48,982 nt of DNA from IMG/VR virus record IMGVR_UViG_3300042314_001108, positions 1-48,982 of that record. The stretch is one strand, 5' to 3'. Both the position numbers and the translations under genes were made by a program. Below are positions 5,595 to 48,545 of this stretch, in pieces (the stretch's first letter is position 1; every line of letters begins with the position of its first letter). Source of the stretch: a virus. The notes beneath the pieces are model-generated. The model worked only from the letters and a program-made list of their open reading frames with translations, did no database searches and was not told the DNA's origin.

Positions 5595-5597
5595 GTT

Positions 5598-6863: not shown

Positions 6864-7389
6864 CCTATACTATTATATTCCATACTTTTATTTAGAAAGA
6901 AATACTACAAAAACTCAAATAAAAAATGGTGGGTTTTATAGATTATATGGATATGATTATGTAGATGGAACAAAAAAAGCATATGGAGCTTCACAAACTC
7001 CACTCTTATTGGTATTGGGTTTTAACAGAGGTGATAAATTATTACATTGCATAAAGTTAAACTCAATACCTTTAAGAGTATTTAGTCAATTGATGAAAAA
7101 GATACAAGACCCATTGTATGTAGTTGCTTTGTTGAAAGATATACAAGATACAAACACAGAATTAAGTGAAAACTTACAATATAGTAAAGAAGGTAAAGCA
7201 ATAAAGATAGATAGAACGGGTTCTCAATTTTATCAAAAGCAAGTTAAAAATAATACACTACTTAAAAACTACGATTGTTATAGAACCTATAAAATACCTG
7301 GATTAAAACGATTGGGTGAAATATATTTCAACGTAGAAAAGTTGGGTAAGAAAATAGGTTTAACAATACAACCTGTTGGTAGACAATAA
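6856..7389 (+). CDS. hypothetical phage protein in glycosyltransferase cassette
   Basis: A 177-residue basic, Tyr-rich protein (MNNLYYYIPYFYLER...). It contains 'GASQTPLLLVLGFNRGDKL' followed by 'LHCIKLNSIPLRVFSQLM', vaguely like small conserved T4-type myovirus proteins with a 'P.l..lg...g..lh.i.l' core, but I cannot name the family. It overlaps the preceding glycosyltransferase by 8 bases and precedes a GT2 gene, so it is translated with the cassette. No signal peptide or membrane segment. Confidence 0.65.
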   Translation: MNNLYYYIPYFYLERNTTKTQIKNGGFYRLYGYDYVDGTKKAYGASQTPLLLVLGFNRGDKLLHCIKLNSIPLRVFSQLMKKIQDPLYVVALLKDIQDTNTELSENLQYSKEGKAIKIDRTGSQFYQKQVKNNTLLKNYDCYRTYKIPGLKRLGEIYFNVEKLGKKIGLTIQPVGRQ

Positions 7390-7397
7390 AATAGATT

Positions 7398-8024
7398 ATG
7401 AAAATAAGTTACGCAGTTACAGTATCCAATGAAATAATTGAGATACAAAATCTTATAGGGAGATTATCCGCTCACAAACGTGAGGAAGATGAAATCGTAG
7501 TTCAATTTGATTCACCCACCGCAACGATTCCAGTTGTTGAATATCTAAACAAATCGGTAATTGATGGTTCAATTCAACATTTAGTATCATTTCCATTAAA
7601 CGGCGATTTCGGACAGTTCAAACAACACTTAAATCAAAATTGTAATGGAGATTGGATTTTCCAATTAGATGCAGATGAGGATTTAGACCCACAACTTATA
7701 GAAAACCTACATACTATTTTAGAGGGAAATCCAGAGATAGATATGTTTTGGCTACCACGTATCAACATCGTAAATGGTTTAACACCCGAAGATATTACGA
7801 AGTGGGGATGGAATATGAGTGAGCAAGGTTGGGTAAATTATCCAGATGTACAAGGTAGATTGTACCGAAACAAACAAGGTATTTATTGGGCAGGTAAGGT
7901 ACATGAGAAAGTACAAGGATACGAAAGTTATTCTATTTTCCCACCAGAAGAAATATATTCAATCAAACACATCAAAGATATAGATAGACAACGTAAACAA
8001 AACGATTTCTATGAGCAACTATAA
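7398..8024 (+). CDS. GT2-like glycosyltransferase (GT-A fold)
   Basis: A 208-residue protein. N-terminus KISYAVTVSNE, 'EDEIVVQFDSPTA', then 'GDWIFQLDADEDLDPQLIE' with a DAD (DxD) metal/nucleotide-sugar motif near residue 92, and 'QGRLYRN..IYWAGKVHEKV' typical of small GT2 enzymes of the SunS/WaaE type. The last 14 bases overlap the next gene. Expected to transfer a sugar with divalent-metal help; acceptor unknown. Confidence 0.75.
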   Translation: MKISYAVTVSNEIIEIQNLIGRLSAHKREEDEIVVQFDSPTATIPVVEYLNKSVIDGSIQHLVSFPLNGDFGQFKQHLNQNCNGDWIFQLDADEDLDPQLIENLHTILEGNPEIDMFWLPRINIVNGLTPEDITKWGWNMSEQGWVNYPDVQGRLYRNKQGIYWAGKVHEKVQGYESYSIFPPEEIYSIKHIKDIDRQRKQNDFYEQL

Positions 8025-8679
8025 AGAAGTTTCAGTAGTTCTTACCGCATGTAATAGACCTGATTTGTTAGAGAAAACTTTGGATAGTTTCCATAAGTTT
8101 AACACGTATCCAATCAAAAAGTTTATAGTGATTGATGATAGTGGTGTCGTTGGATGTAATAACGATTTGATTAAAAAGTATCCACTAATAAAGTTTATAG
8201 ATAATCCACAAAATATAGGGCAAGTCCGTAGTATAGATAAAGCATACTCTATGATTACAACTCCTTATGTGTTCCATATGGAAGAAGATTGGGAGTTCTA
8301 TAAAGAAGGATTCATTGAGGCTTGCTTGGAGGTTATTGATTTGGATGAAAAAATTATATGTGTATGGACTAGAGACCAAAATGATATATTACATCCATTA
8401 TTATCAGATGTCTATCTGACCGAAAGTGGTAATAAAATACAAAGAGTTAGTTGGGGATTCGATGGGCATTGGCATGGGTTTACATTCAATCCATCATTAA
8501 AGAAAATGAAAGATTACCCAACGAATGGATACACTCCAATTGGTAGGGAATTAGAATTGAGTAAGTATTATTATTCATTGGGATACTTTGCTATGGCATT
8601 CAAAGAAGGATATTGTAAACACGCTGGTTGGGGTAGACATGTAACGGATGTTGGTGAGGATGGACAACATCAAAAATAA
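8011..8679 (+). CDS. GT2-like glycosyltransferase (GT-A fold)
   Basis: A 222-residue protein. 'EVSVVLTACNRPDLLEKTLDSF' is a classic GT2 N-terminus. 'KKFIVIDDSG' and 'IKFIDNPQNIGQVRSIDKAY' follow the nucleotide-binding half, and 'YVFHMEEDWEFYKEGFI' sits at the DxD position as EED. 'SWGFDGHWHGFTFNPSLKK' is near the acceptor side. It overlaps the upstream GT2 gene by 14 bases, suggesting translational coupling. Confidence 0.78.
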   Translation: MSNYKEVSVVLTACNRPDLLEKTLDSFHKFNTYPIKKFIVIDDSGVVGCNNDLIKKYPLIKFIDNPQNIGQVRSIDKAYSMITTPYVFHMEEDWEFYKEGFIEACLEVIDLDEKIICVWTRDQNDILHPLLSDVYLTESGNKIQRVSWGFDGHWHGFTFNPSLKKMKDYPTNGYTPIGRELELSKYYYSLGYFAMAFKEGYCKHAGWGRHVTDVGEDGQHQK

Positions 8680-8687
8680 TAAATAAA

Positions 8688-9323
8688 ATGACTATTGGGG
8701 AATGGGAAGATAAATTAAAAGAATCCATCGTAAAAAATGTAAAAACTATTATAGAACATTTAAACGATGGTGATACATTTGTTGATATTGGGGCAAATAC
8801 AGGCTTACTTACACAACTTGTAATTGATGGTATGAAATCAGATGGTAAACAACTGAAAAATGTTGTTATGTTTGAACCAATAGAAATGTACTACAACGAA
8901 TGTGTAAATAAATTTGGAGATAAACCAAACTTTATTATAGAAAACCTTGCATTAAGCGATGATGATACTGATAAAACAATTTATGCATCGCAAGAAAACT
9001 TTGGATACAATAAGATATACAAACAAGGAATGGAAGTGCAACCACATGATAAGTATATTATCAAATGTAAAACATTCAGTAATTGGATGTTAGATGGGAA
9101 AATTGATAAAATCAACTTTATAAAAATAGATGCAGAAGGACACGATATTGAAATTATATATGGTATGTTAGATTGGCTTCGAAGTAGTAATTTGAGACCT
9201 TATATTTTATTTGAACGTGGTTGGTATGAGGATAGAGAAACCGAATTGGCTAACATATTAAAAGATGATTTCAATTATATAGTAGAAGATTTAGGAACAG
9301 ATTGGTTATTAAAACAAAAATAG
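8688..9323 (+). CDS. FkbM-family SAM-dependent methyltransferase
   Basis: A 211-residue protein. 'GDTFVDIGANTGLLTQL' (residues 28-44) is the SAM-binding motif I, 'NVVMFEPIEMYYNEC' motif II with the ribose-binding acidic residue, and 'INFIKIDAEGHDIEIIYG' the hallmark FkbM 'KIDvEGhE' segment. FkbM enzymes O-methylate sugars and polyketides, which suits its place between glycosyltransferases: it may cap or decorate the glycan the cassette makes. Confidence 0.85.
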   Translation: MTIGEWEDKLKESIVKNVKTIIEHLNDGDTFVDIGANTGLLTQLVIDGMKSDGKQLKNVVMFEPIEMYYNECVNKFGDKPNFIIENLALSDDDTDKTIYASQENFGYNKIYKQGMEVQPHDKYIIKCKTFSNWMLDGKIDKINFIKIDAEGHDIEIIYGMLDWLRSSNLRPYILFERGWYEDRETELANILKDDFNYIVEDLGTDWLLKQK

Positions 9324-9326
9324 ATT

Positions 9327-10481
9327 ATGCTAACAATAGTTATACCAGCTTACAATAATGTTGATTATCTTAAACTTTGTTATGAAAGTATAAGAGAAAG
9401 TAGTAAAGATGTAGAGTTAATTATATTCAATGATGGTAGTTCAGATAGTACTACTGAATGGTTAAATGGATTAACAGATTCGCATTTACAATATGAAATA
9501 TTTGATGAAAGAATAGGTCATACCATACTATATGATAAAGGATTTCAGATGGCTAAAACCGAATATGTAGGAATACTACACGCGGATATGGTTGTTTCTA
9601 AAAATACCATACCATCAATCATAGATAATTTAGATAAAAACAAAATATTATCCCTTACTTGTATAGAACCACCAATACATCCTGCGGGAGTTGAAAAGAT
9701 TCAAATGGATTTTGGTATGTATCCACAAGATTTTAATATGGAATCATTCAATGATTTTTGTATTAATTTAGAAGCCCAATCAAAAGGTAAAACACATGAT
9801 TCATTGTTTGCACCCTGGTTTGTAAATAAAGAAGAATACTTAAATAGAATCGGTTCACATGATACTCTTTTTGCACCATATGGTTGGGAAGATTCTGATA
9901 TATTTGTTCGTATGGTTTTAGCCGGATTTGATATTGTTAGAATGCAAGATACATTCGTTTATCATTTTACACAAAGAGGGCATAAATGGAAAAACGGAAA
10001 AGTGGGAGAGTTTAATAATGATTATCAGCAACAGATGTTTAATATGCAACGTGAGTTCATCCGTAAATGGGGAACTGATATGTGTAGGGATAATGAGCAT
10101 AGACCAGTTAGTATAATTAAATACGATATTGGTTTGGTTATGGATAATGCAAGAGAAGATGTAATTGGTTATTTAGAACCATATTTCTCAAACATATATT
10201 GTGATACTGAAATAGCAGTTGATTATCTATCAAATGAACTACGTCTTACCAAATCAGATATAAACAAAAAGTTTAGACCAATTGGTACAAAGCCAGAAAA
10301 TGATGTGGTAGTAATGTGTAATTGTGATGATTTACTTGCAGACCAAACCCGATTTAATTTCCTAACTATGTTACCTATGGTGATGCAAGATAATAATGCA
10401 GAGGGCAATTTCAAATATGATGTGTTTGATATATCGGTAAATAAACTAACGCAGTATCAAAATTCATTAGTTAAACTTTAA
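9327..10481 (+). CDS. GT2 glycosyltransferase with C-terminal extension
   Basis: A 384-residue protein. 'MLTIVIPAYNNVDYLKLCYES', 'VELIIFNDGSSDSTTEWL' and 'YVGILHADMVVSKNTIPSI' (DxD as HADM) define a GT2 GT-A domain over about residues 1-230. The last ~120 residues ('IKYDIGLVMDNAREDVIGYLEP...') form a separate, unrecognised alpha/beta-looking domain. It is the final gene of the glycosyltransferase run; the virion-protein block starts 40 bases later behind its own promoter-like motif. Confidence 0.8.
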   Translation: MLTIVIPAYNNVDYLKLCYESIRESSKDVELIIFNDGSSDSTTEWLNGLTDSHLQYEIFDERIGHTILYDKGFQMAKTEYVGILHADMVVSKNTIPSIIDNLDKNKILSLTCIEPPIHPAGVEKIQMDFGMYPQDFNMESFNDFCINLEAQSKGKTHDSLFAPWFVNKEEYLNRIGSHDTLFAPYGWEDSDIFVRMVLAGFDIVRMQDTFVYHFTQRGHKWKNGKVGEFNNDYQQQMFNMQREFIRKWGTDMCRDNEHRPVSIIKYDIGLVMDNAREDVIGYLEPYFSNIYCDTEIAVDYLSNELRLTKSDINKKFRPIGTKPENDVVVMCNCDDLLADQTRFNFLTMLPMVMQDNNAEGNFKYDVFDISVNKLTQYQNSLVKL

Positions 10482-24359: not shown

Positions 24360-24622
24360 TGGATAAGATAATTTTGGTTCACTACATTAATGTAGATGGA
24401 GTACCCAATAGTAATTTCGGAGAAATGATGGAAATGGTTAAGGAATCATTGGCAAAAGATGCTGATATTATTTCTTATATAATTCCCGTTAGAGATGAGC
24501 CAACTCGTATTGAGTGTGTAAATCCAAAGCTATTAAAAGAGAATGATGATGCGTGGGATAATGTTAAACGAATATTGGATAGAAACCAAAAGGCAGTTGA
24601 TAAATTTATAAAGGAGCAATAA
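24359..24622 (+). CDS. hypothetical 87-aa protein
   Basis: Linked by one-base overlaps on both sides (TAATG). 'KIILVHYINVDGVP' then 'ISYIIPVRDEPTRIECVNP' suggests a small alpha/beta protein. No family recognised. Sits between ClpP and an oxygenase, so it is co-translated with them. Confidence 0.65.
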   Translation: MDKIILVHYINVDGVPNSNFGEMMEMVKESLAKDADIISYIIPVRDEPTRIECVNPKLLKENDDAWDNVKRILDRNQKAVDKFIKEQ

Positions 24623-25230
24623 TGGAATTTATACACAGAATACCAAATTTGTTATCATTAGAGTTTTGTAAAGACCTTATAGATTTATTTGAAAAATCAA
24701 ATTTAAAGAAGAAGGGTTCATCATATGTGGTAAATGATAGTGGAGTTTTCAGATTGAATGAAAATACTACCAAAAAATCAACAGATATTTCCATAAATGC
24801 TGGATTTATTGAAGATGCGGTAGAATGTGGTGAACCTGAATGGTTTGAGTATGTACAATATATAAATTCTAAATTAGAAAAGGGATTAGATTCTTATATA
24901 TTAGAACATCCACAATTAGATAAGATACAAAAGTTTGATTTGGAAGGATATAATATACAACGATATTTACCAGGTGAAGGATTTTTTAATTGGCATTGTG
25001 AAAATTCAGGATATCCGGGCGGGAATGATAGAGTATTGGCTTGGATGATATATCTAAATGATGTAGAAGCAGGTGGAACGCAATTTAAATCACAAAATCA
25101 TACAGAAACAGCAGAAGCTGGTAAATTTGTTATATGGCCTGCGTTTTGGACTCATTTTCATAAAGGTCAAATTAGTGAAACCCAAACCAAGTATATTATA
25201 ACTGGATGGTATAAACATATAAATACTTAA
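24622..25230 (+). CDS. 2OG-Fe(II) oxygenase (prolyl-4-hydroxylase-like)
   Basis: A 202-residue protein. 'YNIQRYLPGEGFFNWHCENSG' carries H125-x-E127 (Glu in place of Asp), 'AWMIYLNDVEAGGTQF', 'AGKFVIWPAFWTHFHKGQI' carries the distal His, and 'TKYIITGWY' supplies K190 where Arg usually binds 2OG. This is the P4H-alpha/PHD-type arrangement. Substrate unknown, and distinct from the paralogous pair at 18-19 kb. Confidence 0.85.
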   Translation: MEFIHRIPNLLSLEFCKDLIDLFEKSNLKKKGSSYVVNDSGVFRLNENTTKKSTDISINAGFIEDAVECGEPEWFEYVQYINSKLEKGLDSYILEHPQLDKIQKFDLEGYNIQRYLPGEGFFNWHCENSGYPGGNDRVLAWMIYLNDVEAGGTQFKSQNHTETAEAGKFVIWPAFWTHFHKGQISETQTKYIITGWYKHINT

Positions 25231-27834: not shown

Positions 27835-27861
27835 ATGTCTAAAATATATTTTAGAAAAGAC

Positions 27862-27892
27862 TTGACATTATCATTTATTTTACCTATCTTTA
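27862..27892 (+). promoter_or_regulatory. promoter of the TTGACATT subclass
   Basis: TTGACATT at 27862-27869, then TATCTTTA at 27885-27892, with 20 nt between TTG and the -7. Upstream of the second promoter for the VWA gene. Confidence 0.65.
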
Positions 27893-27930
27893 TAGGGTAA
27901 TGAGAGTTAGATATAAAATAAAATCAACAT

Positions 27931-30193: not shown

Positions 30194-30226
30194 TGAAAAA
30201 AAGTTCAAAAATATTTGGTCAAATGC

Positions 30227-30257
30227 TTGACATTCTCATATATTTTGCGTATCTTTA
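30227..30257 (+). promoter_or_regulatory. promoter of the AAA+ gene (TTGACATT subclass)
   Basis: TTGACATT at 30227-30234 and TATCTTTA at 30250-30257, 20 nt apart. Its first half matches the promoter at 27967. Confidence 0.8.
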
Positions 30258-30310
30258 TTAAACATTGAGAGAGTTACTAATTTTAAACATAAAACTTAAA
30301 TAAAATCCTT

Positions 30311-32496: not shown

Positions 32497-32774
32497 ATTT
32501 AATGGACAAAGTTATTATTAAAGATGGGGATACATTTGTAGAAAATATATTCTATCTACGAAACAATTTTTTAGATTCCAAACACATATTTACATCGGAA
32601 GATAATTTGGTGTATGATGAAAGTTTGGCAGTAATATGGGAAGGTTCGGTTGGCTCAAAGGCAATCCGGCCATTGAAAGGTGATTTACCATATACACAAA
32701 TTGATGAAACTACATATGAGTTAGATATTGCACCATATAAAAATGGTCCTTTAACTATGGCAGATTTATTTTAA
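32493..32774 (+). CDS. hypothetical 93-aa protein
   Basis: Predicted beta-rich and acidic ('EDNLVYDESLAVIWEGSVGS'). Coupled to the upstream gene by ATGA. No family recognised. Followed by a promoter. Confidence 0.65.
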   Translation: MNLMDKVIIKDGDTFVENIFYLRNNFLDSKHIFTSEDNLVYDESLAVIWEGSVGSKAIRPLKGDLPYTQIDETTYELDIAPYKNGPLTMADLF

Positions 32775-32781
32775 TAAATGC

Positions 32782-32812
32782 TTGGAATTGTAAAATATTT
32801 TGCGTATATTTA
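32782..32812 (+). promoter_or_regulatory. Bacteroidetes-type promoter (TTG-N20-TATATTTA)
   Basis: TTG at 32782-32784 and TATATTTA at 32805-32812, 20 nt apart, 24 bases before the start at 32836. Confidence 0.75.
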
Positions 32813-32835
32813 CTTTATAATCAAAAATAAAAGTT

Positions 32836-39586: not shown

Positions 39587-39742
39587 ATGGAAATTATAGT
39601 AGATTTATTTTGGTTTGTTGTTTCTGCGGGTTTAATATATCTGTATGTTAGAAACACAAATAGAGTAGTTAAGGAGTTAATAAATGAGTTAGAACATAAA
39701 AAAAAGTTATATGAGCAAAAAACTAACAATCCCAAAAATTGA
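39587..39742 (+). CDS. 51-aa single-helix membrane protein
   Basis: MEIIVDLFWFVVSAGLIYLYVR is a membrane helix, followed by a charged helix 'RVVKELINELEHKKKLYEQK'. The last 32 bases overlap the next gene in a different frame. Helix-plus-coil layout resembles the 22570 gene. Confidence 0.6.
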   Translation: MEIIVDLFWFVVSAGLIYLYVRNTNRVVKELINELEHKKKLYEQKTNNPKN

Positions 39743-40028
39743 AACCATAATAGGTAGAAAAACAGAAATGGGTTCTGTTATTACGCATGCATTAGTGTTG
39801 GATGGTGTATATAAGATTATGTTCAACCACAAAAAGAAAAGTGGTAATGTAATGATATATAGAAATCAATATAGTAATTTGTATGAGGCACATTTTACTT
39901 ATGGTAAATATACAGATAAAGCACAATTCATACCCACACATCTACAAACGCCAAATGATATTTGCTTTGTAGTTGGTGCATTTATGGATTTATTTGAAAA
40001 TTATTATGATAAAAAGAATAGAAATTGA
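39711..40028 (+). CDS. hypothetical 105-aa protein
   Basis: 'ALVLDGVYKIMFNHKKKSGNV' and 'LYEAHFTYGKYTDKAQF' predict beta structure. Overlaps the small membrane gene upstream by 32 bases and the oxygenase downstream by 23. No family recognised. Confidence 0.6.
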   Translation: MSKKLTIPKIETIIGRKTEMGSVITHALVLDGVYKIMFNHKKKSGNVMIYRNQYSNLYEAHFTYGKYTDKAQFIPTHLQTPNDICFVVGAFMDLFENYYDKKNRN

Positions 40029-40605
40029 TAAAGAATACGCTGAAGTTTTAGCAGAATTAATACTTGCTTCGGAGTTTGATTGGTATTGGAATCCAGCAAC
40101 AATATTTGAATATAAAGTTGGTGCAGTAATTGATGCAAAAACAAAAGATACACCTCAATTTACTCACACTATTTTTGATAACTTTTCTAAAAAATCAATA
40201 TATTATCATTATTTTTCAGAAATGATTCAACATATTGAACCATATATTGGTAAGGTTAAACAACTGATTCGAATTAAAGCAAATCTTATAATTGGCGATG
40301 CAACATATCCACAGGATTTTTATAATGGAGCACATGCTGATTATTATGGCGATAATATGCTTACATTTTTATATTATGTAAATGATTCGGATGGTGATAC
40401 TATATTGTTTGATGGTGAATTAGATGGTAAAGAACATAATATAACTGAATTAAAAGAAATACATAGGGAAACACCAAAGGCAGGAACAGGAATTGTATTT
40501 AATTCACAACAAATACACACGTCATCTACACCTAGATTTACCGATAGACGAGTAGTAATAAATTATGTTTTTGAAATGTATGAGACTAACGATACAAAAT
40601 TTTAA
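40006..40605 (+). CDS. 2OG-Fe(II) oxygenase
   Basis: A 199-residue protein. H110-x-D112 in 'NGAHADYYGDNMLTFLYYVND', 'GDTILFDGELDG', distal H171 in 'FNSQQIHTSSTPRFTDRRVVIN' and R181/R182 for 2OG. A start at 40006 (MIKRIEIDKEYAE) is preferred over 39973, which lies deeper in the preceding gene. Overlaps the next gene by 26 bases. Substrate unknown. Confidence 0.85.
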   Translation: MIKRIEIDKEYAEVLAELILASEFDWYWNPATIFEYKVGAVIDAKTKDTPQFTHTIFDNFSKKSIYYHYFSEMIQHIEPYIGKVKQLIRIKANLIIGDATYPQDFYNGAHADYYGDNMLTFLYYVNDSDGDTILFDGELDGKEHNITELKEIHRETPKAGTGIVFNSQQIHTSSTPRFTDRRVVINYVFEMYETNDTKF

Positions 40606-40918
40606 TAAAGCATGTGACCCCTTAAATATTCAACTATTTGATTTTGGCGATTGGTTTATTGATGATGCAGATATACTTGAAGATGTATATTTTATTCTTT
40701 TTCAAAATAAACAAAAATCAATACCATATATAGAAGTATCACTTAATAGGAATAAAGTTGATGGATATGGGTATCATTTAGAAACAAAATTGTGGTATTC
40801 TGGAAACAATTGGGAATCCGTTGAAGAATTATTTTTAGAACCATCGGATTTAAAAACTGAATCGGATTTCTTAAAATTAATTCATGGTATTATATCATTA
40901 CATTGTATAAAATGCTAA
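40580..40918 (+). CDS. LNRxK-family small protein (member 1)
   Basis: A 112-residue protein. It starts 'MRLTIQNFNKACDPL' and has 'IPYIEVSLNRNKV' (LNRNK 55-59), the two features shared with proteins at 40912, 45564, 46343, 46745 and 47573. ATG at 40580 is within the oxygenase gene (26-base overlap). Function unknown; no recognised domain. Confidence 0.6.
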   Translation: MRLTIQNFNKACDPLNIQLFDFGDWFIDDADILEDVYFILFQNKQKSIPYIEVSLNRNKVDGYGYHLETKLWYSGNNWESVEELFLEPSDLKTESDFLKLIHGIISLHCIKC

Positions 40919-41268
40919 CCATAAATAACTTTGAAAAGCTAGATGGATACCAAGATGATGAACTACGAATAAGTGGTGTGTTTGAGTATGCTGATGTATA
41001 TAAAATATTTGTAGATTATGCTATACCATTTGAAAATATAAGTATCTATATTACTATAAATAGAAATAAAAGAACCGATATAGACCCAAAGTTCCCACTT
41101 GATAAAACGCCGGTATATAATACAATGATTGAACAAAGACTCGTAAAGGGTGTAAATGGTGGTGTTAAACGAAAGGATTTGGGTATAAAAAAGAAAGCAT
41201 TAGAGAGTAGTGATAATATAATAAAAGCAATAAAGGAAATGCTAGATGATTTTGTAAATGAACGATGA
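40912..41268 (+). CDS. LNRxK-family small protein (member 2)
   Basis: A 118-residue protein. 'MLTINNFEKLDGYQ' and 'NISIYITINRNKRTD' (INRNK 49-53) match member 1 and the later copies. The C-terminal part is a basic helix 'VKRKDLGIKKKALESS'. An in-frame TTG at 40903 is rejected. Overlaps the lipoprotein gene by 4 bases (ATGA). Function unknown. Confidence 0.6.
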   Translation: MLTINNFEKLDGYQDDELRISGVFEYADVYKIFVDYAIPFENISIYITINRNKRTDIDPKFPLDKTPVYNTMIEQRLVKGVNGGVKRKDLGIKKKALESSDNIIKAIKEMLDDFVNER

Positions 41269-41876
41269 AAAAGTTACTGATATTTTTACCTATATTACTA
41301 TTGGCTTGTATGAAAGAGCCAGAGTATATAGTACCTGCTCCACCACCGTATAATTTTACATTCCAATTAGATTCTGCTTTAAATGGTAGTGGTACTCGTG
41401 CTTTGTCTAAAGATAAGGCAGGGTATTATCATTTAAAATTATCTGAAAATTCGTTTCAAACATTCAGTCGTATTACTGGTACTTTTTTATGGAATGGAAA
41501 GCCAAATCCAAGACTATCACCGGTTGGTTGTTGGGTAGAATGGAAAAGTTCCCATTATTGGTTATTAAAAAATAATTCATCTTTATTCGTAGTATATAAA
41601 ACATATTTTAATCAATTTACCGGAAAATTGGTTACTACTGAATTGGGAACAATAAAAGCACAAAGTAGTGCATTAGTACCAACAATAAATGGTATGTCTT
41701 ATCCATCTTCAGATGGTAGTGTAAATACAATTGTTGCTCCTATTTATCCAATACGTGGGGACACTATGACAATAACTGCAATATGCCATATAAGTAAAGA
41801 AATACCAACATCTCAACTATTTGTTAGAATCGAAAGGGATTCGATAGAAAGAAAGATGAGAATTATTTGTGAATGA
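41265..41876 (+). CDS. predicted lipoprotein
   Basis: A 203-residue protein: signal peptide KKLLIFLPILLLAC with lipobox LLAC, then a Pro-rich linker (EYIVPAPPPYNF) and a beta-rich body (GTFLWNGKPNPRLSPVGCWVEW). Its end overlaps the NlpC/P60 gene start, so it may assist lysis or envelope entry; no evidence beyond position. Looks like a host-type envelope lipoprotein fold. Confidence 0.7.
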   Translation: MKKLLIFLPILLLACMKEPEYIVPAPPPYNFTFQLDSALNGSGTRALSKDKAGYYHLKLSENSFQTFSRITGTFLWNGKPNPRLSPVGCWVEWKSSHYWLLKNNSSLFVVYKTYFNQFTGKLVTTELGTIKAQSSALVPTINGMSYPSSDGSVNTIVAPIYPIRGDTMTITAICHISKEIPTSQLFVRIERDSIERKMRIICE

Positions 41877-42319
41877 TGAAAAAAATTAGTATATTTGTAT
41901 TATTAAGTTTACCTACCTTTGCACAAACAACCGATTCTACAATGAATGGGTTTATATGGCATTGGGTGGGTAAACCATATAGATTGGGTGGTAGTACCGA
42001 AAGAGGTATCGATTGCTCACAATTTAACAAACGTCTATACAAAGAGGTGTATGAGATTAAGTTAGGTAATAACTGCCAAACTCAATGGATACAAACCGAT
42101 AGAGTTGATAAGGATAGTTTGGAGTTGGGTGATTTAGTATTCTTTAAGAGTAGAGAATCCCCATCAGGTTGGCATTGTGGTACATATATAGGTAATAAAC
42201 AAATAGTACACTCTGCAAACAGAGCAGAAGGTGTGAAGATTAGTAGTTTAGATGAACCCAGATACACCAAAGGGTATAAAGGTGCAGGAAGGATTAAAAG
42301 AAAATACATAACAATATAG
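41873..42319 (+). CDS. exported NlpC/P60 endopeptidase
   Basis: A 148-residue protein with a signal peptide (KKISIFVLLSLPTFAQ). 'WVGKPYRLGGSTERGIDCSQFN' carries catalytic C48, and 'SGWHCGTYIGNKQIVHSAN' H101. It cuts the peptide side chains of peptidoglycan. With the glucosaminidase at 35748 it gives two exported wall hydrolases. Start ATG overlaps the upstream TGA by 4 bases. Confidence 0.9.
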   Translation: MMKKISIFVLLSLPTFAQTTDSTMNGFIWHWVGKPYRLGGSTERGIDCSQFNKRLYKEVYEIKLGNNCQTQWIQTDRVDKDSLELGDLVFFKSRESPSGWHCGTYIGNKQIVHSANRAEGVKISSLDEPRYTKGYKGAGRIKRKYITI

Positions 42320-42322
42320 AAA

Positions 42323-42640
42323 ATGGAAGTTAAATACGCAACGATTGCAACCAAAGACCAGGAAGATGGTAGAGTATTAGTAAAGCACATATGTGTTTGG
42401 GAAAGTGCACCCGGAGAAGATGATGTTAAAGGTTTAGTTAAGGAACTATGGGAAAGACCTGATTGGGGTATGGTTGGTGATGATGATTTTGATTTGGTTA
42501 ATTTAGAAAGAAGTGAAGAGAACGAACATATATTTGAGCAACTGAATATACCAAAGGAAATTACAGAACAAGTTGAGGTAGACGAGCCTGCGATTAAACC
42601 AATTAAGAAAACAACAACAAAGAAAAAAACAAAGAAGTAA
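42323..42640 (+). CDS. hypothetical acidic protein with Lys-rich tail
   Basis: A 105-residue protein. 'VLVKHICVWESAPGEDDVKG' and 'DWGMVGDDDFDLVNLERSEENE' are acidic, and the tail 'IKKTTTKKKTKK' is strongly basic. No family recognised. Three bases after the NlpC/P60 gene. Confidence 0.6.
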   Translation: MEVKYATIATKDQEDGRVLVKHICVWESAPGEDDVKGLVKELWERPDWGMVGDDDFDLVNLERSEENEHIFEQLNIPKEITEQVEVDEPAIKPIKKTTTKKKTKK

Positions 42641-42641
42641 T

Positions 42642-42908
42642 ATGGAAGCTAAAAAGAAATATACATTTAAGCAATTCATAGCTGCATTAAGTAGTAGAGA
42701 TTTTAATAAGTTGGACCCGAATGCGATTGAGGTTACTAAATCTTATTTTCAAAAATTAAATGATTTAGATTTTGTACATACGGAAAACAATATCAAAGAT
42801 AAAACAATAAATGGGTGTGATTTATGTAAATTACAAAACTATTTGGAAGAGTATAGGTTGTATTATTTCGATGAGGCATATTACAGAAAAGAGTATTTAG
42901 GTGAATAA
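42642..42908 (+). CDS. hypothetical 88-aa protein
   Basis: A helical protein with 'INGCDLCKLQNYLEEY' containing a CxxC pair and a Tyr-rich end. One base after the preceding stop. No family recognised. Confidence 0.6.
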   Translation: MEAKKKYTFKQFIAALSSRDFNKLDPNAIEVTKSYFQKLNDLDFVHTENNIKDKTINGCDLCKLQNYLEEYRLYYFDEAYYRKEYLGE

Positions 42909-42910
42909 CT

Positions 42911-43420
42911 ATGGAGCTTGATTTGGAAGATATAAACAAACGATTGGATGAGTTTGATAAGGAACACAAACCTTTCAAACAATTCCAAACAATTGGTGAT
43001 GAAGATTATGTAGTAGAGTTCCCAAAAGGACCTACCAAAAGCTATTATTGTACCCCAAAAACAAAACTGAAATATAGTTTGTTTATAGGTAGGTGGCAGA
43101 ATTGGCACTATGGTCACAAATGGTTAATTGACCAGCAATTCCAAATTGGTAACAATGTATGGGTAGCTATTAGAGATGTAGAAAAAGATGAGAATAATCC
43201 GTATTCAGCCGAAGAGGTAAAATCTAATCTAAACACACAGTTAAAAGATTACATAAAGACGGGTAGATTATATATTTCAATTATACCTGATATTGAGTCT
43301 GTAAACTATGGTAGAGATGTGGGATACGATGTAATCTATCACGAACCACCAGAGGGTATAGCAAAAATTAGTGGTACAAAAATTAGAAATAATGCAACAG
43401 ATAAGAGCACTACAATGTGA
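42911..43420 (+). CDS. HxGH nucleotidyltransferase (cytidylyltransferase/NMNAT-like)
   Basis: A 169-residue protein. 'LKYSLFIGRWQNWHYGHKWLID' carries the H66YGH69 nucleotide-binding motif. 'GNNVWVAIRDVEKDENNPY' and the C-terminal 'KISGTKIRNNATD' match the 'iSaTkiR' end of NMN/phosphopantetheine adenylyltransferases. Likely an adenylyl- or cytidylyltransferase, possibly in NAD metabolism, which phages often supplement; the exact substrate is not decided. Overlaps the next gene by 29 bases. Confidence 0.8.
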   Translation: MELDLEDINKRLDEFDKEHKPFKQFQTIGDEDYVVEFPKGPTKSYYCTPKTKLKYSLFIGRWQNWHYGHKWLIDQQFQIGNNVWVAIRDVEKDENNPYSAEEVKSNLNTQLKDYIKTGRLYISIIPDIESVNYGRDVGYDVIYHEPPEGIAKISGTKIRNNATDKSTTM

Positions 43421-43955
43421 TAATTTTTTTGAGAACCCAAATTTGATTAGGGAATGTGCTCTTGCTCAAACATATAGAACGCCGGATGAGGATGAGAGTT
43501 GGTTGGGGTTAAGAACGGAAGAATTGGATATTGAAATAGGTGGATTAAATGTAGAGAAACATATAAAGGATAAAGTAAAACAATGGTTACCTGATATACC
43601 TGATTTTGATTTAACTTTAGTATTTCATTTATTACCAGAAAGTGTGAGGGGGGATATGGGTGATAGGTTTGATTACTTACAATCACATACCGATAGTGGA
43701 GTAGTACATTTTGCAGGTGTTGTTTATCTAACACCTGAAGCACCTCTTAATAGTGGTACATCATTTTTTGCAGATATAAACACCAAATTGGGTAGTGTGG
43801 AAAATGTATATAATAGATTTGTATTTTATCCTGCTGATATAATACATTCACCAACAAACCCATTTGGTGAGACCAATGAGGATAGTAGATTAGCATTAAC
43901 ATTCTTTGCATCAATAAAAGATAAAAATATCATTGGAAACAATAAGAATACATAA
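43392..43955 (+). CDS. 2OG-Fe(II) oxygenase-like protein (DUF6445-type), first of a pair
   Basis: A 187-residue protein. 'CDNFFENPNLIRECALAQTY' (N-terminal 'DNFF.nP..iR'), H99-x-D101 in 'LQSHTDSGVVHFAGVVYLTP', 'GTSFFAD', then 'FYPADIIHSPTNPFGE' with H152 and 'DSRLALTFF' with R166. It looks like the DUF6445 branch of 2OG-like folds. ATG at 43392 is preferred over 43371. The following gene is a clear paralogue. Confidence 0.75.
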   Translation: MQQIRALQCDNFFENPNLIRECALAQTYRTPDEDESWLGLRTEELDIEIGGLNVEKHIKDKVKQWLPDIPDFDLTLVFHLLPESVRGDMGDRFDYLQSHTDSGVVHFAGVVYLTPEAPLNSGTSFFADINTKLGSVENVYNRFVFYPADIIHSPTNPFGETNEDSRLALTFFASIKDKNIIGNNKNT

Positions 43956-44478
43956 GATAGATAATTTCTTTGATAATCCAGACGAGATACGTGAGTGTGC
44001 TTTAAATATGGATTTTGATGGACCATCACCAACGCAAGGTTGGCGTGGTATAAGAGTTAATCCCACAAACAGAGTGGTTGCTGGGGTTGATTTGGAACAA
44101 ATGATAGTTGAGGAAGTTGCATTTAGAATACCTAATTTTAAATATGGTGAAATGGAATTGTATTTCCATATAACATCGGAGGAGGTAAGGGAGAATTTTA
44201 CTACTGAAACCTTTGAGGAAGCATCAAAGCACTATGATAGTAATGATTCTAGGATAGTAGGTTTGGTATATTTAACCCCTAACCCACCAAAAAATTGTGG
44301 AACATCATTTTTCGATGACGATGGTAATAAGATTGGTGAAGCAGAAAATGTATATAATACTATGGTAATATACCCAGCTGATATACTGCATGGACCAACA
44401 AATCCATTTGGGGATACAAAAGAAAATAGTAGATTAACATTAGTATTTTTCTTAAAGAAATATGACAACAATAGATAA
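43933..44478 (+). CDS. 2OG-Fe(II) oxygenase-like protein (DUF6445-type), second of a pair
   Basis: A 181-residue paralogue of the preceding gene: 'IDNFFDNPDEIRECALNMDF', H100-x-D102 in 'SKHYDSNDSRIVGLVYLTP', 'CGTSFFDDDG', H153 in 'YPADILHGPTNPFGD' and R167. The start is probably TTG at 43933 (overlapping 23 bases), since no in-frame ATG precedes the conserved motif. Tandem duplication is likely. Confidence 0.75.
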   Translation: METIRIHKIDNFFDNPDEIRECALNMDFDGPSPTQGWRGIRVNPTNRVVAGVDLEQMIVEEVAFRIPNFKYGEMELYFHITSEEVRENFTTETFEEASKHYDSNDSRIVGLVYLTPNPPKNCGTSFFDDDGNKIGEAENVYNTMVIYPADILHGPTNPFGDTKENSRLTLVFFLKKYDNNR

Positions 44479-44686
44479 ATTTAATCAGTTCTATGAGCAT
44501 GGTGGCTATGACTCATATATGAAAATGATTCAGAAATCAAAGAACAACAATATAGATAGACAGAGTGAGATGACCAAATACCTTGCTGAAATCTATATGG
44601 ATTTTGTAAGAGCACAAGGTAGAGTTGATGAGGATATAATGCGAGTGTTCATCGCAGTAACCGCACAATTTTTCGGAGAGATATAA
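44462..44686 (+). CDS. hypothetical 74-aa helical protein
   Basis: Starts MTTIDKFNQFYEHGG. Helical, with 'MTKYLAEIYMDFVRAQGRVDEDIM'. Overlaps the oxygenase by 17 bases and ends before a promoter. No family recognised. Confidence 0.6.
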   Translation: MTTIDKFNQFYEHGGYDSYMKMIQKSKNNNIDRQSEMTKYLAEIYMDFVRAQGRVDEDIMRVFIAVTAQFFGEI

Positions 44687-44718
44687 ATCCCATCCGTTAA
44701 AAATTTCCATAAAATCAC

Positions 44719-44749
44719 TTGGAAATACCACAAATAATTCGTATATTGT
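44719..44749 (+). promoter_or_regulatory. Bacteroidetes-type promoter with variant -7 (TATATTGT)
   Basis: TTG at 44719-44721, a 20-nt spacer and TATATTGT at 44742-44749. The -7 differs from TATATTTG in its last two bases. Confidence 0.6.
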
Positions 44750-44768
44750 GGGTATAAAACTTAAAAAT

Positions 44769-45095
44769 ATGAATAAAAATCAAAAAAATTGGTTGAAAGC
44801 AACCCGTCTTACTATCGGAGTGTTGGGTGGTATGGGATTGTTTGTAGTGGGATTAGCAATGTTCTATTTGAATTACCCACAATACTTTATACACACCTTT
44901 GTTATTATATTGGGTGGGGTGGTGTTGTTTGGTCTAATCAAAATCATCAAAGACCATTTGGATGATGATGATGCATGGGATGAGTATTATGAAAAAACAT
45001 ATCCAACTCAAGCAAGAAAAGAAAAGGAAACACACAAAGAGTTTATGGAGAGGTTGGATGATGCTTGGGAAAGAGACTTTGGTAAAAAACAATAA
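44769..45095 (+). CDS. two-helix membrane protein
   Basis: A 108-residue protein: two transmembrane helices (TIGVLGGMGLFVVGLAMFYL and HTFVIILGGVVLFGLIKII) with 'NYPQY' between them, then an acidic cytoplasmic tail. Related in sequence around 'YPQY' and the second helix to the gene at 45260. Start at 44769; 44748 would lie inside the promoter. Function unknown. Confidence 0.7.
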   Translation: MNKNQKNWLKATRLTIGVLGGMGLFVVGLAMFYLNYPQYFIHTFVIILGGVVLFGLIKIIKDHLDDDDAWDEYYEKTYPTQARKEKETHKEFMERLDDAWERDFGKKQ

Positions 45096-45096
45096 G

Positions 45097-45255
45097 ATGA
45101 TAAAGTGGTTCAAAAGTAGATGGAGTATGAAACCTACGGGTAAGAGCTTCTATGATAGTATAGGTGGTGAAGAGGTGAAGTATTGGGTAGATTGCTATGG
45201 TACGGAGTGGATGGGAGTATCTCGTTGGGGATTTAGAGTAGAAACAAAAGAATAA
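45097..45255 (+). CDS. hypothetical 52-aa protein
   Basis: Starts MIKWFKSRWSMKPTG; basic with many Trp, and 'KYWVDCYGTEWMGVSRWGFRV'. One base after the previous stop. A longer reading starting at 44962 overlaps the upstream gene and is rejected. Between two paralogous membrane genes. Confidence 0.55.
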   Translation: MIKWFKSRWSMKPTGKSFYDSIGGEEVKYWVDCYGTEWMGVSRWGFRVETKE

Positions 45256-45259
45256 AGAT

Positions 45260-45562
45260 ATGAAGAGTAAAAATGATGTATTAGCAGCCCTATACACAAT
45301 AGGTATTATAGGGTTATTTACGTTGGTGATATATTCAATTAAGGAGTATCCGCAATATATGGGATACCTATTTACATTATTAGGGGTTTTTGGGGTATTT
45401 TTGGTGTTCATTCATCCAATGTGGGATACGATTAGGTATGAGTTGGATGTAAGGGATAAAAAGAAGAGAGAGGAGAGATTGAAAGAAATGATGAAAAAGG
45501 ATGAGGAGTTGAGATTGTATGATTTGGAGTTGGATGAGAACGATAAAGCTCAAATAGGATAG
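45260..45562 (+). CDS. two-helix membrane protein (paralogue of 44769)
   Basis: A 100-residue protein. Helices 'ALYTIGIIGLFTLVIYSI' and 'GYLFTLLGVFGVFLVFIH' with 'EYPQYMG' between, then a charged tail 'KKKREERLKEMMKKDEELR'. The shared YPQY and helix layout suggest duplication with 44769. Function unknown. Confidence 0.65.
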   Translation: MKSKNDVLAALYTIGIIGLFTLVIYSIKEYPQYMGYLFTLLGVFGVFLVFIHPMWDTIRYELDVRDKKKREERLKEMMKKDEELRLYDLELDENDKAQIG

Positions 45563-45563
45563 G

Positions 45564-46163
45564 ATGAGTCTAATGGATGCGTGGAAGAGGTGGGAGTTGG
45601 AAATGGAGAAAAAGAGAATAGAGGCTCACTATGAAACCCAACAAAAAATGTTAGAGGTACAAAAATCAATGTGGGATAAGCATAATAATAAAAATCAGAT
45701 GGAAGAGAAGCAAACGAAGTTAAACATCCAAAACATCCAAAAGTTGGAAAATCAACCTTTGGTAGATGGTAAATACTATCCTAGAATAGAGAGTATAGAA
45801 GAGAGGGATAATGAATACCGCTTTTGGATATTGGTAGATAGTGGGGTGAATTTGAAAAATGTTAGAAAGGTAATATGCTTGGAGAGGAATAAGAATTTGA
45901 CATCGGATAGTGGTGTAAATTTCTATAAACTATGGGCAGCTGCCCGATGGATAGGGGACGAAAATTTCGATAGTGTGAGTTCAATGTGTATATCAAATTT
46001 GGAGTCTTTCAAAGAAAAGTTATTGGATATGGTTGGTATGGATAGTTTGAGTATGAGTGGTGGTCCTACACACTCAATAGCTTATTTTACGGATACAAAT
46101 TCGGTAAGTGGTGGTGATTCAGAAAAGCTACAAACATTGAGTGATTTCTTTAATAGTTTATAA
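45564..46163 (+). CDS. LNRxK-family protein with N-terminal helix (member 3)
   Basis: A 199-residue protein. Residues 1-50 are a charged coiled-coil-like helix. Then the family core starts at 'KLNIQNIQKLENQPL' (52-66), with 'RDNEYRFWILVD' and 'KVICLERNKNL' (LERNK 106-110), and 'ISNLESFKEKLLDMV'. It is the only family member with an added N-terminal helix. Its stop is followed by GC-rich element copy 2. Function unknown. Confidence 0.6.
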   Translation: MSLMDAWKRWELEMEKKRIEAHYETQQKMLEVQKSMWDKHNNKNQMEEKQTKLNIQNIQKLENQPLVDGKYYPRIESIEERDNEYRFWILVDSGVNLKNVRKVICLERNKNLTSDSGVNFYKLWAAARWIGDENFDSVSSMCISNLESFKEKLLDMVGMDSLSMSGGPTHSIAYFTDTNSVSGGDSEKLQTLSDFFNSL

Positions 46164-46168
46164 GTAAA

Positions 46169-46226
46169 TCGCGGGGGAGGGGCGGGGGTAGGAAACGCAG
46201 TCGAAACCTAATTTTTTTGATAGTAT
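46169..46226 (+). repeat. GC-rich element, copy 2
   Basis: Starts 5 bases after a stop codon: CGC, then three G runs (46173-46188), GTCGAAACCTAA, and TTTTTTTGATAGT. Same order and spacing as 22428-22500. Between 46227 and 46342 a further G-rich stretch (about 46271-46298) and no ORF are visible. Confidence 0.7.
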
Positions 46227-46342
46227 AGAAACCAAATCAGAAGCGCTTTTAACTGTCCGTTTGAGTGTGATTTGGGTTTGGGGGATTTGGATTTGGTGAG
46301 TAAAACGAATGTGGGACAAACAAGATAAAAATATTTCAGCAA

Positions 46343-46714
46343 ATGCTAAACATAAGAAACATAGATAAGATAGTAGGAAAGACACTACATATATCGAATA
46401 CTAAAATGTATAGACTAGCAATAGGGAGAATAGATGATGTAATTGAGTATTCAGATAATAGATATGAGTTTACAATAAAGGTAGAAACACCCGATGGTAG
46501 AAGCAATTGGTATTTTTTATACTTAAATAGAAAGAAAAAAACCTATATAAGCTATTCAAAATCAATGAGAACATATAGTTGTTGGGAGTTATCCTATGAA
46601 GATATACAAAAACCAAATCAATTCATAGTAGAATCTATACAAACGAGTGAGTTAATGGATATGAGAGAGGTAGAAAGAAAAATATCTATTTTAATGGATA
46701 AAATTTTAACATAG
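46343..46714 (+). CDS. LNRxK-family small protein (member 4)
   Basis: A 123-residue protein. 'MLNIRNIDKIVGKTL', 'DNRYEFTIKVE', 'WYFLYLNRKKKTYIS' (LNRKK 61-65), 'CWELSYED' and a C-terminal helix 'MREVERKISILMDKIL'. Most similar to the next gene, sharing the Trp-Glu-Leu-Ser motif. Function unknown. Confidence 0.65.
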   Translation: MLNIRNIDKIVGKTLHISNTKMYRLAIGRIDDVIEYSDNRYEFTIKVETPDGRSNWYFLYLNRKKKTYISYSKSMRTYSCWELSYEDIQKPNQFIVESIQTSELMDMREVERKISILMDKILT

Positions 46715-46744
46715 ATTCATTACATTCAAATCGAAATAGATAAG

Positions 46745-47098
46745 ATGCTAACCATAGAAAACATACATAAGATAGTACATAAGAAAATAATTATACCACA
46801 TCACCCAAATTGGATAGGTACAGTAAAAGATGTGTATTATATGATTGATAACACCTATGTATTCCAAATACAATTGAATGCTCTAAACTATGTGAATAAT
46901 AAAGAAATAAAGATTGTATTGAATAGAAAAAGACCGGTAGGTATTTACCCTACACAAAATTGCTGGGAGTTAAGTTATGAGATAGGTAAAGGTTCAAACC
47001 GATATGAAGTTCAATTAGTAGAGAATGGGGATGTAAAGGATATGAATCGATTTGAAATAGCATTGGGTAGTTTTACGAATAGAATCTTAAATAGATAA
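46745..47098 (+). CDS. LNRxK-family small protein (member 5)
   Basis: A 117-residue protein. 'MLTIENIHKIVHKKI', 'DNTYVFQIQL', 'KIVLNRKRPVG' (LNRKR 59-63) and 'CWELSYEIG' followed by 'MNRFEIALGSFTNRIL'. Clearly paralogous to the preceding gene. Function unknown. Confidence 0.65.
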   Translation: MLTIENIHKIVHKKIIIPHHPNWIGTVKDVYYMIDNTYVFQIQLNALNYVNNKEIKIVLNRKRPVGIYPTQNCWELSYEIGKGSNRYEVQLVENGDVKDMNRFEIALGSFTNRILNR

Positions 47099-47099
47099 A

Positions 47100-47195
47100 A
47101 TGGGAATTATAATAGTTTTGCCGGTAGTAATTGTAGCAATGTATTTTGGATATTGTATTTGGTTTATTGAAACACATAACAAAGGTAAACAATAG
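47100..47195 (+). CDS. 31-aa single-helix membrane peptide
   Basis: MGIIIVLPVVIVAMYFGYCIWF is one membrane helix with a polar tail. It starts 1 base after the preceding stop. Similar in kind to the small peptides at 38988 and 39493. Could be chance given its size. Confidence 0.45.
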   Translation: MGIIIVLPVVIVAMYFGYCIWFIETHNKGKQ

Positions 47196-47213
47196 AATCT
47201 TAAATAAATAATT

Positions 47214-47570
47214 ATGAAGTTAAATATAGAATCACCTACAAAGCTATGTGATTATGCCAATAAGGTAGTAACGAGCTGGAAATTAACCTATATAGGACAA
47301 GGTACTCAATATGGGATATATCACTATACCCTAACCAATAAAGAGAATAATTTTGTAGAAATAGGGGTAGAGATACATAATGAAACCCAACAATTATATA
47401 ATCCGGAATCATTCCAACTATTGGATAACGAATATGTGAAAATTTTTTGTAAGGATTTAAACGTACCCCAAAAGAGAGGTGTAACTAAATTTATAAGAGT
47501 AGAAGAATTTAAGGAGGTAAAGAGGGTATTCAACACCCTACACAATGCTGGAAGACAGTTAATACAATAG
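47214..47570 (+). CDS. small protein, distant LNRxK-family member (member 6)
   Basis: A 118-residue protein beginning 'MKLNIESPTKLCDYANKVV', similar to 47573 only at the N-terminus. The 'LNR' core is replaced by 'FVEIGVEIHNETQ'. The rest is beta-rich with a C-terminal helix 'EEFKEVKRVFNTL'. Grouped with the family tentatively. Confidence 0.5.
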   Translation: MKLNIESPTKLCDYANKVVTSWKLTYIGQGTQYGIYHYTLTNKENNFVEIGVEIHNETQQLYNPESFQLLDNEYVKIFCKDLNVPQKRGVTKFIRVEEFKEVKRVFNTLHNAGRQLIQ

Positions 47571-47572
47571 GT

Positions 47573-47896
47573 ATGAAGTTAAACATAGAGAATATAGACA
47601 AACTGAAAGGAGTGAAGTTAAAACCTAGTATAGCTTACATAGAAGAGTGTATAGATGTAGGAGATGATGAGTATAGGTTTAAAATCATAGATGGAAATTG
47701 GTTTTGGGCTACCGCTATCCTATCACGAAAATCTAAATTTATATCTAGAGGTATGAGTTACTATACCCTATACTCTTCTAATACAACCCATAAGGAGAGT
47801 ATAAGTAAAGAAGATATAGAAGATATAGAGAAGTTTAAAACCTTTTTATTCCAAATAATTAGAGTTGATGATTTTCATCCTATGGTCTATAACTAA
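47573..47896 (+). CDS. LNRxK-family small protein (member 7)
   Basis: A 107-residue protein. 'MKLNIENIDKLKGVKLKPS', 'DDEYRFKIIDG', 'WATAILSRKSKFIS' (LSRKS 50-54) and 'IEDIEKFKTFLFQII'. Last gene before the 650-bp noncoding region. Function unknown. Confidence 0.65.
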   Translation: MKLNIENIDKLKGVKLKPSIAYIEECIDVGDDEYRFKIIDGNWFWATAILSRKSKFISRGMSYYTLYSSNTTHKESISKEDIEDIEKFKTFLFQIIRVDDFHPMVYN

Positions 47897-48016
47897 TAAC
47901 TAACGTAGTACACTTAAATCTATTACTTTGCTCGTCTATAAGGTGTTAAAACCAACATACCTATATAATCACATACGAGAGGTGTATAAAAGAGGGATAT
48001 GACGAGGTATGGATAT

Positions 48017-48048
48017 TTAGTTAAATAACTAATTAGTTAAACAACTAA
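48017..48048 (+). repeat. tandem hairpin repeats, order A-B
   Basis: TTAGTTAAATAACTAA (A, 48017-48032) followed directly by TTAGTTAAACAACTAA (B, 48033-48048). Each is a 6-bp stem TTAGTT/AACTAA with a 4-nt loop. Iteron-like. Confidence 0.75.
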
Positions 48049-48193
48049 TTAACACAATAGGATTTAGCAAAAGAAAGAGGTAGACCCCATAACGGGTACA
48101 AAGCAGTGAGAAGACGCCAAGTACATATACATTTGTGAGCAAAAAACCAAGGATTTCTGAATTTATTTTACACAGTCTCACACATTTAGATAG

Positions 48194-48225
48194 TTAGTTA
48201 AACAACTAATTAGTTAAATAACTAA
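48194..48225 (+). repeat. tandem hairpin repeats, order B-A
   Basis: The same two 16-mers, now TTAGTTAAACAACTAA (B, 48194-48209) then TTAGTTAAATAACTAA (A, 48210-48225): the reverse order of the pair at 48017, start-to-start 177 bases. Confidence 0.75.
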
Positions 48226-48457
48226 ATACGGAATAATCCTATGCCCCAAATCCGCACGTGTTTTATTCGTGCGTACGAGAAATCCTCTCAAAACTCACCA
48301 TTCACACGCGTGTTGTTTACATATGTAAATCGGTTTATAAGAATAATACAATTTTTTTAGGAGATATATTTTTACATTCAGACGATACTACGTGTGAATG
48401 CGGTTAATATACCCACGATATTTTTTTAATTTATTTTAAAAATATTTTACAAAAGAC

Positions 48458-48488
48458 TTGACATTGTGAAATAAATTGCGTACCTTTA
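48458..48488 (+). promoter_or_regulatory. promoter of the TTGACATT subclass (TACCTTTA)
   Basis: TTGACATT from 48458 and TACCTTTA at 48481-48488, TTG-to--7 spacing 20 nt. Its -33 half matches the promoters at 27862, 27967 and 30227. Confidence 0.75.
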
Positions 48489-48545
48489 GTAAACAATGGG
48501 GGAAAAGGTCCTCTGTTATTAAAGTTAAACATAAACAACACTACT

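Follow-up and report, generated by a model that had tools for sequence, protein, structure and literature searches.

The window analyzed here is a 48,982-bp stretch of viral DNA, IMG/VR virus record IMGVR_UViG_3300042314_001108, which is probably a fragment; our subject is a family of small proteins encoded on its + strand (Table 1), each named below by the first position of its gene. A sequence-only reading had listed seven of these proteins as an undescribed family of paralogues, arisen by repeated duplication in a phage, with counter-defence or target binding of diversifying specificity as possible roles.

Eight related proteins in the window

All seven open reading frames (ORFs) of that list were found at their reported positions. 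Kinship among their products was assessed by leaving out each protein together with its orthologues, constructing a profile hidden Markov model (HMM) from the remaining members, and interrogating the 305 window ORFs with 50 codons or more, taken from all six frames. Six of the seven proved homologous, being recovered with E-values of the order of 1e-4 to 7e-11; they outranked all non-members, the best of which reached between 0.08 and 0.6 according to the profile used, and the motifs that they share are therefore not due to chance. The sequence CWELSYE, said to be common to 46343 and 46745, was confirmed in both.

The seventh protein, 47214, had been thought to share only the start of the domain. 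The in-window profile indeed misses it (E 3), but a full-length relationship emerges through an orthologue in a related phage, the ORF L159:5091-5435. Directly preceded by a homologue of 46343, this ORF aligns with 47214 end to end (21% identity, blastp 5e-7) and has an E-value of 5e-16 against the family profile. Because of this match, and because its score against the final profile (E 0.045) is below that of every reversed-sequence control, 47214 is counted as a divergent full-length member. An eighth protein, 39711, was absent from the earlier list; left out of the profile it was the top-ranked ORF after the members (E 0.12), and it reached 8e-14 once relatives were added, with 39711 and its orthologues then within that profile. 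Sequence comparison accordingly gives a family total of eight in the window, six matched by leave-one-out profiles and two (39711 and 47214) linked only via relatives.

Related contigs include G001 (IMGVR_UViG_3300042549_005307, 55 kb) and G002 (IMGVR_UViG_3300042566_000678, 148 kb). The latter carries orthologues of 39711, 40580, 40912, 46745 and 47214, and an additional tandem run of small ORFs beginning ML[TK]IxN.

Table 1. Family genes and promoter-like elements in the window (aa, amino acids; leave-one-out values are E-values)
Feature	Position	Strand	Evidence or remark
Family member, 105 aa, MSKKLTIPKIE...	39711..40028	+	Orthologues: G002, 76% identity; G001, 27%
Family member, 112 aa	40580..40918	+	Leave-one-out 1.8e-4
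Family member, 118 aa	40912..41268	+	Leave-one-out 7e-7; G001 95% identical, G002 67%
Family member, 199 aa, N-terminal extension of about 50 aa and conserved C-terminal tail	45564..46163	+	Leave-one-out 1e-4; orthologue L016:16389
Family member, CWELSYE subgroup, 123 aa	46343..46714	+	Leave-one-out 3e-7; relative L159:4690 50% identical
Family member, CWELSYE subgroup, 117 aa	46745..47098	+	Leave-one-out 1e-6; AlphaFold model pLDDT 91.6
Divergent member (counted as such), 118 aa	47214..47570	+	Via L159:5091-5435
Family member, 107 aa	47573..47896	+	Leave-one-out 7e-11
Promoter-like element copy	27836..27916	+	nhmmer 3.5e-16
Promoter-like element copy	30201..30279	+	nhmmer 2.2e-17
Promoter-like element copy, nearest upstream of family genes	32755..32831	+	nhmmer 1.6e-9
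Promoter-like element copy, just past the array	48432..48510	+	nhmmer 2e-17

Distribution, predicted fold and sequence variation

Further contigs were recruited via the AAA ATPase encoded at 30311 and via one conserved subfamily (alignment A10, with orthologues in 21 contigs), and iterative searches of the fetched IMG/VR stretches yielded 215 family ORFs, 190 of them distinct. Controls were clean: at E-values below 0.1 there were 230 matches in forward and none in reversed sequences, and none of the 215 was antisense. Copies per contig vary from one to 22, whole-contig counts (E 0.001) being 22 in G062 (48 kb), 21 in G063, 17 in G060, 14 in G061, 12 in G002, 10 in G055 and seven in the window. 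The genes form arrays, and in L187 they are near-consecutive, most gaps measuring -7 to +11 nt.

The family was present in 15 of the 37 contigs first tested, those without it mostly being short or encoding a less similar AAA protein. Profile searches of 17 additional distant contigs, of Microcystis phage Mel-JY01, Flavobacterium phage immuto and Rhodothermus phage RM378, and of an uncultured phage of 484 kb found no member; tblastn with four members against isolate phages returned nothing below E 0.03, and 84,980 bacterial and archaeal genomes, scanned twice with short peptide patterns, a search of low sensitivity, gave no family match. G002 encodes a T4-type DNA polymerase, a portal and a baseplate protein, which marks the lineage as T4-like. 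Among the genomes searched, then, the family is confined to an uncultured lineage of large T4-like phages. The nearest isolates are Mel-JY01 and immuto, which give the best portal protein matches (47% and 48%, respectively), the latter infecting Flavobacterium, and the hosts are probably Bacteroidota.

AlphaFold models were made for two members with overlapping alignments, 46745 from the window (predicted local distance difference test, pLDDT, 91.6; predicted template modeling score, pTM, 0.84; 40-row alignment) and a compact relative (pLDDT 94.4, pTM 0.83; 73-row alignment). Both show the same order of elements: a short helix, five main strands, a short helix and a C-terminal helix. The fold predicted for these two is an antiparallel meander of five strands followed by a C-terminal helix, with the LTIxN segment at its N-terminus and a length of about 100 residues.

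Conservation was computed over 88 columns of an alignment of 187 distinct members (maximum entropy 4.32 bits). Only 17 columns are strongly conserved (2.1 bits or less), while 56 are near-random (3.3 bits or more). Near-fixed positions are I4 (97%), N6 (94%), Y32 (96%) and R51 (89%), and the first six residues as a group are strongly conserved. Hydrophobic residues predominate in the conserved columns, which alternate along the strands in the manner of a core. Among polar positions only N6 and R51 show strong conservation, K9 (63%) and E27 (54%) coming next, and the 187-member alignment holds no conserved polar set of catalytic appearance. The isoelectric point (pI) ranges from about 4.7 to 9.5 across members, with deciles of 5.5 to 9.5.

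That the family lacks a recognizable domain, as the sequence-only reading had stated, was upheld by every comparison made: no convincing match came from Pfam, PHROGs, NCBIfam, PADLOC, PDB sequences or Foldseek. The four family libraries returned isolated weak matches only, each to at most one or two members; single hits among them (Imm9, 0.0067; PH_9, 0.028; a bleomycin-resistance domain, 0.011-0.017; DUF2027, 0.048; PD-T4-2_B, 0.013) were rejected because no more than one member matched each. The best E-values against PDB sequences (hmmsearch) were 0.51 and 1.2, and those of the two models against PDB structures (Foldseek) were 0.2 and 0.8, at noise level. Two viral models in BFVD bear a partial fold likeness to 46745, namely A0A6J5M6C1 of an uncultured Caudovirales phage (probability 1.00, template modeling score, TM, 0.51, E 0.036) and A0A7T3KF72 of Campylobacter phage F358 (probability 0.99, TM 0.43, E 0.029); both leads are too weak to use. 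A literature search of partial coverage found no account of such a family. A known superfamily could still underlie it, the comparisons consisting of HMM scans and of Foldseek against the PDB and viral models. For the family we found neither a target, nor a homologue of a known anti-defence inhibitor, nor any defence link.

Some copies carry added segments. N-terminal extensions occur in 45564, where the extension is rich in charged residues, and in L118:9768, L152:7682 and L161:6817. In L172:6368, L179:6609, L180:6609 and L154:6393 a CxxC...H..C segment, possibly a zinc ribbon, precedes a family-like domain; the fusion is tentative because the profile scores are only 0.01-0.15. A C-terminal ...PF tip, in forms that include DLPF, EIPF and ELPF, ends eight of 89 family ORFs as against three of 692 others (Fisher p 2.6e-6), the independent events being fewer than the count because some of these ORFs are orthologues. 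One of the three non-family ORFs, L162:8681, reaches 0.026 with the final profile; by eye, the other two resemble members. Window members, like most members, end without the tip.

Divergence, expression and possible role of the arrays

The best match of a member lies on another contig in 188 of 215 cases and on the same contig in 10. The copies are therefore mostly old types common to these phages, and recent tandem duplication is ruled out as their main source. The suggestion of repeated duplication in a phage has to be amended, the copies representing mostly old shared subfamilies and not fresh duplicates; sequence comparison points to a largely old repertoire that has been gained, lost and diverged across the lineage.

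Most genes of the window are 80-97% identical to their counterparts in G002, as against 76, 48, 67, 32, 53 and 50% for six family members, the other two having no counterpart there. Among reciprocal best pairs, median identities of family and other genes were 60% versus 84% between the window and G002 (p 0.04), 39% versus 81% between G001 and G002 (p 0.02), and 44% versus 91% between L152 and L163 (p 0.03). Ratios of nonsynonymous to synonymous substitution rates (dN/dS) were 0.80 for 46745 and 0.50 for 40580 (both against G002), 0.53 for 45564 and 0.34 for 47214, compared with 0.05-0.30 for neighboring genes. Together these identities and ratios amount to fast evolution and are not proof of positive selection.

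A recurring promoter-like element (an A/T tract, TTGACA, about 19 nt, then TA[CT]CTTTA) bears on expression. Bacteroidota promoters follow the pattern TTG / TAnnTTTG, and the element looks like a host-sigma promoter of this type, a likeness from which we infer early expression of the family. At E 0.002 or better its profile matches four sites in the window, four in G001 and about 11 in G002, all on the coding strand; G002 has none among its structural genes, and its family arrays lie far from the portal and baseplate genes, inside a promoter-rich non-structural region. Other relatives gave 15 coding-strand and two antisense matches (E 0.01), the coding-strand ones around the arrays of five closer contigs. 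T4-type late promoters (TATAAATA) showed no coding-strand enrichment.

We propose that this lineage may keep a single-domain scaffold of about 100 residues as a repertoire, its core constant and its exposed positions varying almost freely, in which case each copy would most likely bind a different partner. The placement of arrays among host-sigma-type promoters in the non-structural region of several relatives suggests that the proteins are probably synthesized early and bind proteins of the host, where they could serve as takeover factors or counter-defence inhibitors; N-terminal extensions, the possible zinc ribbon and the ...PF tip may add a second contact on some copies. To the general proposition, that the arrays encode a repertoire of host-protein binders serving takeover or counter-defence, we give somewhat less than an even chance. 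The stronger form, in which one small scaffold of unseen fold acts as a combinatorial repertoire, with fixed core, free surfaces and arrays in which as many as about 22 old, exchangeable copies would each bind a host or defence protein of its own, is put forward tentatively, as a good deal more doubtful.

Several observations weigh against this proposal. The remaining close pairs of contigs show a small, non-significant difference between family and other genes; no tested pair has a dN/dS as high as 1, and 40912 (0.21) and 39711 (0.19) have the values of ordinary genes. Near-random surfaces are compatible with relaxed constraint too, and exposed positions were taken from strand alternation and not from coordinates. 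Searches for the element did not detect it around the arrays of L185-L188, which are more distant and the richest in arrays, and in the window its nearest upstream copy lies about 7 kb before the family genes. Early expression, protein binding, host targets and counter-defence are steps that we infer. As to diversifying specificity, the fixed core with its near-random surface, the fast divergence within the window's clade and the raised dN/dS of some members favor it, while the lack of any ratio above 1 and the ordinary evolution of two members do not; taken as a whole, the earlier interpretation is supported in part.

Four other explanations were considered, each of them unlikely. Members might be virion-associated or ejected proteins, that is, small packaged or decoration proteins varying among relatives as the T4 internal proteins do. 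Those proteins are small and polymorphic, and IPI-IPIII and their relatives are believed to target the host at an early stage of infection; the phages studied here are T4-like, their family members are likewise small polymorphic accessory proteins, and the strong conservation of the first six residues is leader-like. However, no sequence link to the internal proteins was found, and LTIxN is part of the domain, following at least 50 residues in 45564 and other members, and not a removable packaging leader; the arrays are also far larger and stand away from structural genes, as their position in G002 exemplifies. Of similarly low probability is the alternative that members bind one another or other phage proteins, as hetero-oligomers or adaptors, so that their variation reflects co-evolution within the phage. 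The many tightly spaced and probably co-transcribed members of a single array and the N-terminal extensions of some copies are compatible with this, but array size and composition differ between sister phages most of whose other genes are still 80-97% identical.

Slightly less probable again is that the family is near-neutral baggage of the lineage, a foldable domain duplicating and diverging with little constraint and no repertoire function. Entropy near its maximum at most positions, dN/dS of up to 0.8 and a copy number that varies from one to 22 would all be in keeping with it; against it stand the strong conservation of the core over 190 distinct open frames, dN/dS below 1 throughout and the fact that compact phage genomes rarely retain 20 useless genes. 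Least probable is a role in nucleic-acid binding or at the replisome, with the PF tip acting like that of bacterial single-stranded DNA-binding protein (SSB), for although the tip is enriched and its DLPF, EIPF and ELPF forms resemble the SSB C-terminus (DDDIPF in Escherichia coli; PMC5872125), it is confined to a minority of members, none in the window, library scans found no SSB family match nor any other DNA-binding family match common to members, the predicted meander and C-terminal helix differ from the OB-fold, and the wide range of pI comes with no conserved basic surface set.

Among known kinds of locus, these arrays come closest to the fast-evolving accessory gene clusters of T4-like phages, but differ from them in being built from one unrecognized domain in up to 22 copies. 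In T-even phages, anti-defence loci undergo segmental amplification driven by SegB, yielding recent repeats (PMC13096335). The present arrays share with them a changing copy number of accessory genes in T4-like phages and, in G002, possible homing-type endonucleases nearby; in contrast, the family copies are old and have diverged greatly, and around those of the window no endonuclease of this kind was found. Should each copy bind a different host protein, the arrays would constitute a natural collection of inhibitors that phages make against their hosts, probably Bacteroidota, and a multigene family of fixed scaffold and free surface, which is rare in phages. Even otherwise, at least 190 distinct members, in no tested library and with no recognizable PDB fold, merit a family entry and a structure.

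Neighboring genes and other features

Two ORFs beside or within the family arrays of G002, HNH-type L118:8567-9013 and T5orf172-like L118:2634-3107, are possible homing endonucleases, both scoring below the Pfam cut-off. UvdE-type UV endonuclease genes (L180:8307-9194 and L187:6485-7360) adjoin family arrays elsewhere, a cluster present in five examined contigs.

A noncoding stretch of about 650 bp follows the window array (47897-48545). It gave no Rfam match and contains, centred on 48017-48225, two pairs of the 16-bp palindrome-like sequence TTAGTTAAA[TC]AACTAA, the pairs lying 177 bp apart; none of 100 shuffles reached four copies. Its counterpart in G002 is 84% identical and has two exact copies of the palindrome, also 177 bp apart.

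Just before 45564 lie genes for two small proteins with hydrophobic stretches (44748-45095 and 45260-45562), possibly membrane proteins, the first with a weak match to the SdpI family. Four proteins with a predicted 2OG-Fe(II) oxygenase or DUF6445 identity are encoded at 24622-25230, 39973-40605, 43371-43955 and 43933-44478, and the pair 18020/18633 may be related to this set. A 598-residue protein (1173-2969) matches nothing in Pfam and lacks a counterpart in both G001 and G002, although its flanking genes are 92-98% identical. Finally, a run of genes at 4200-10481 includes several for glycosyltransferases, and within it the divergence of 8688 and 9327 between sister phages far exceeds that of the adjoining genes.

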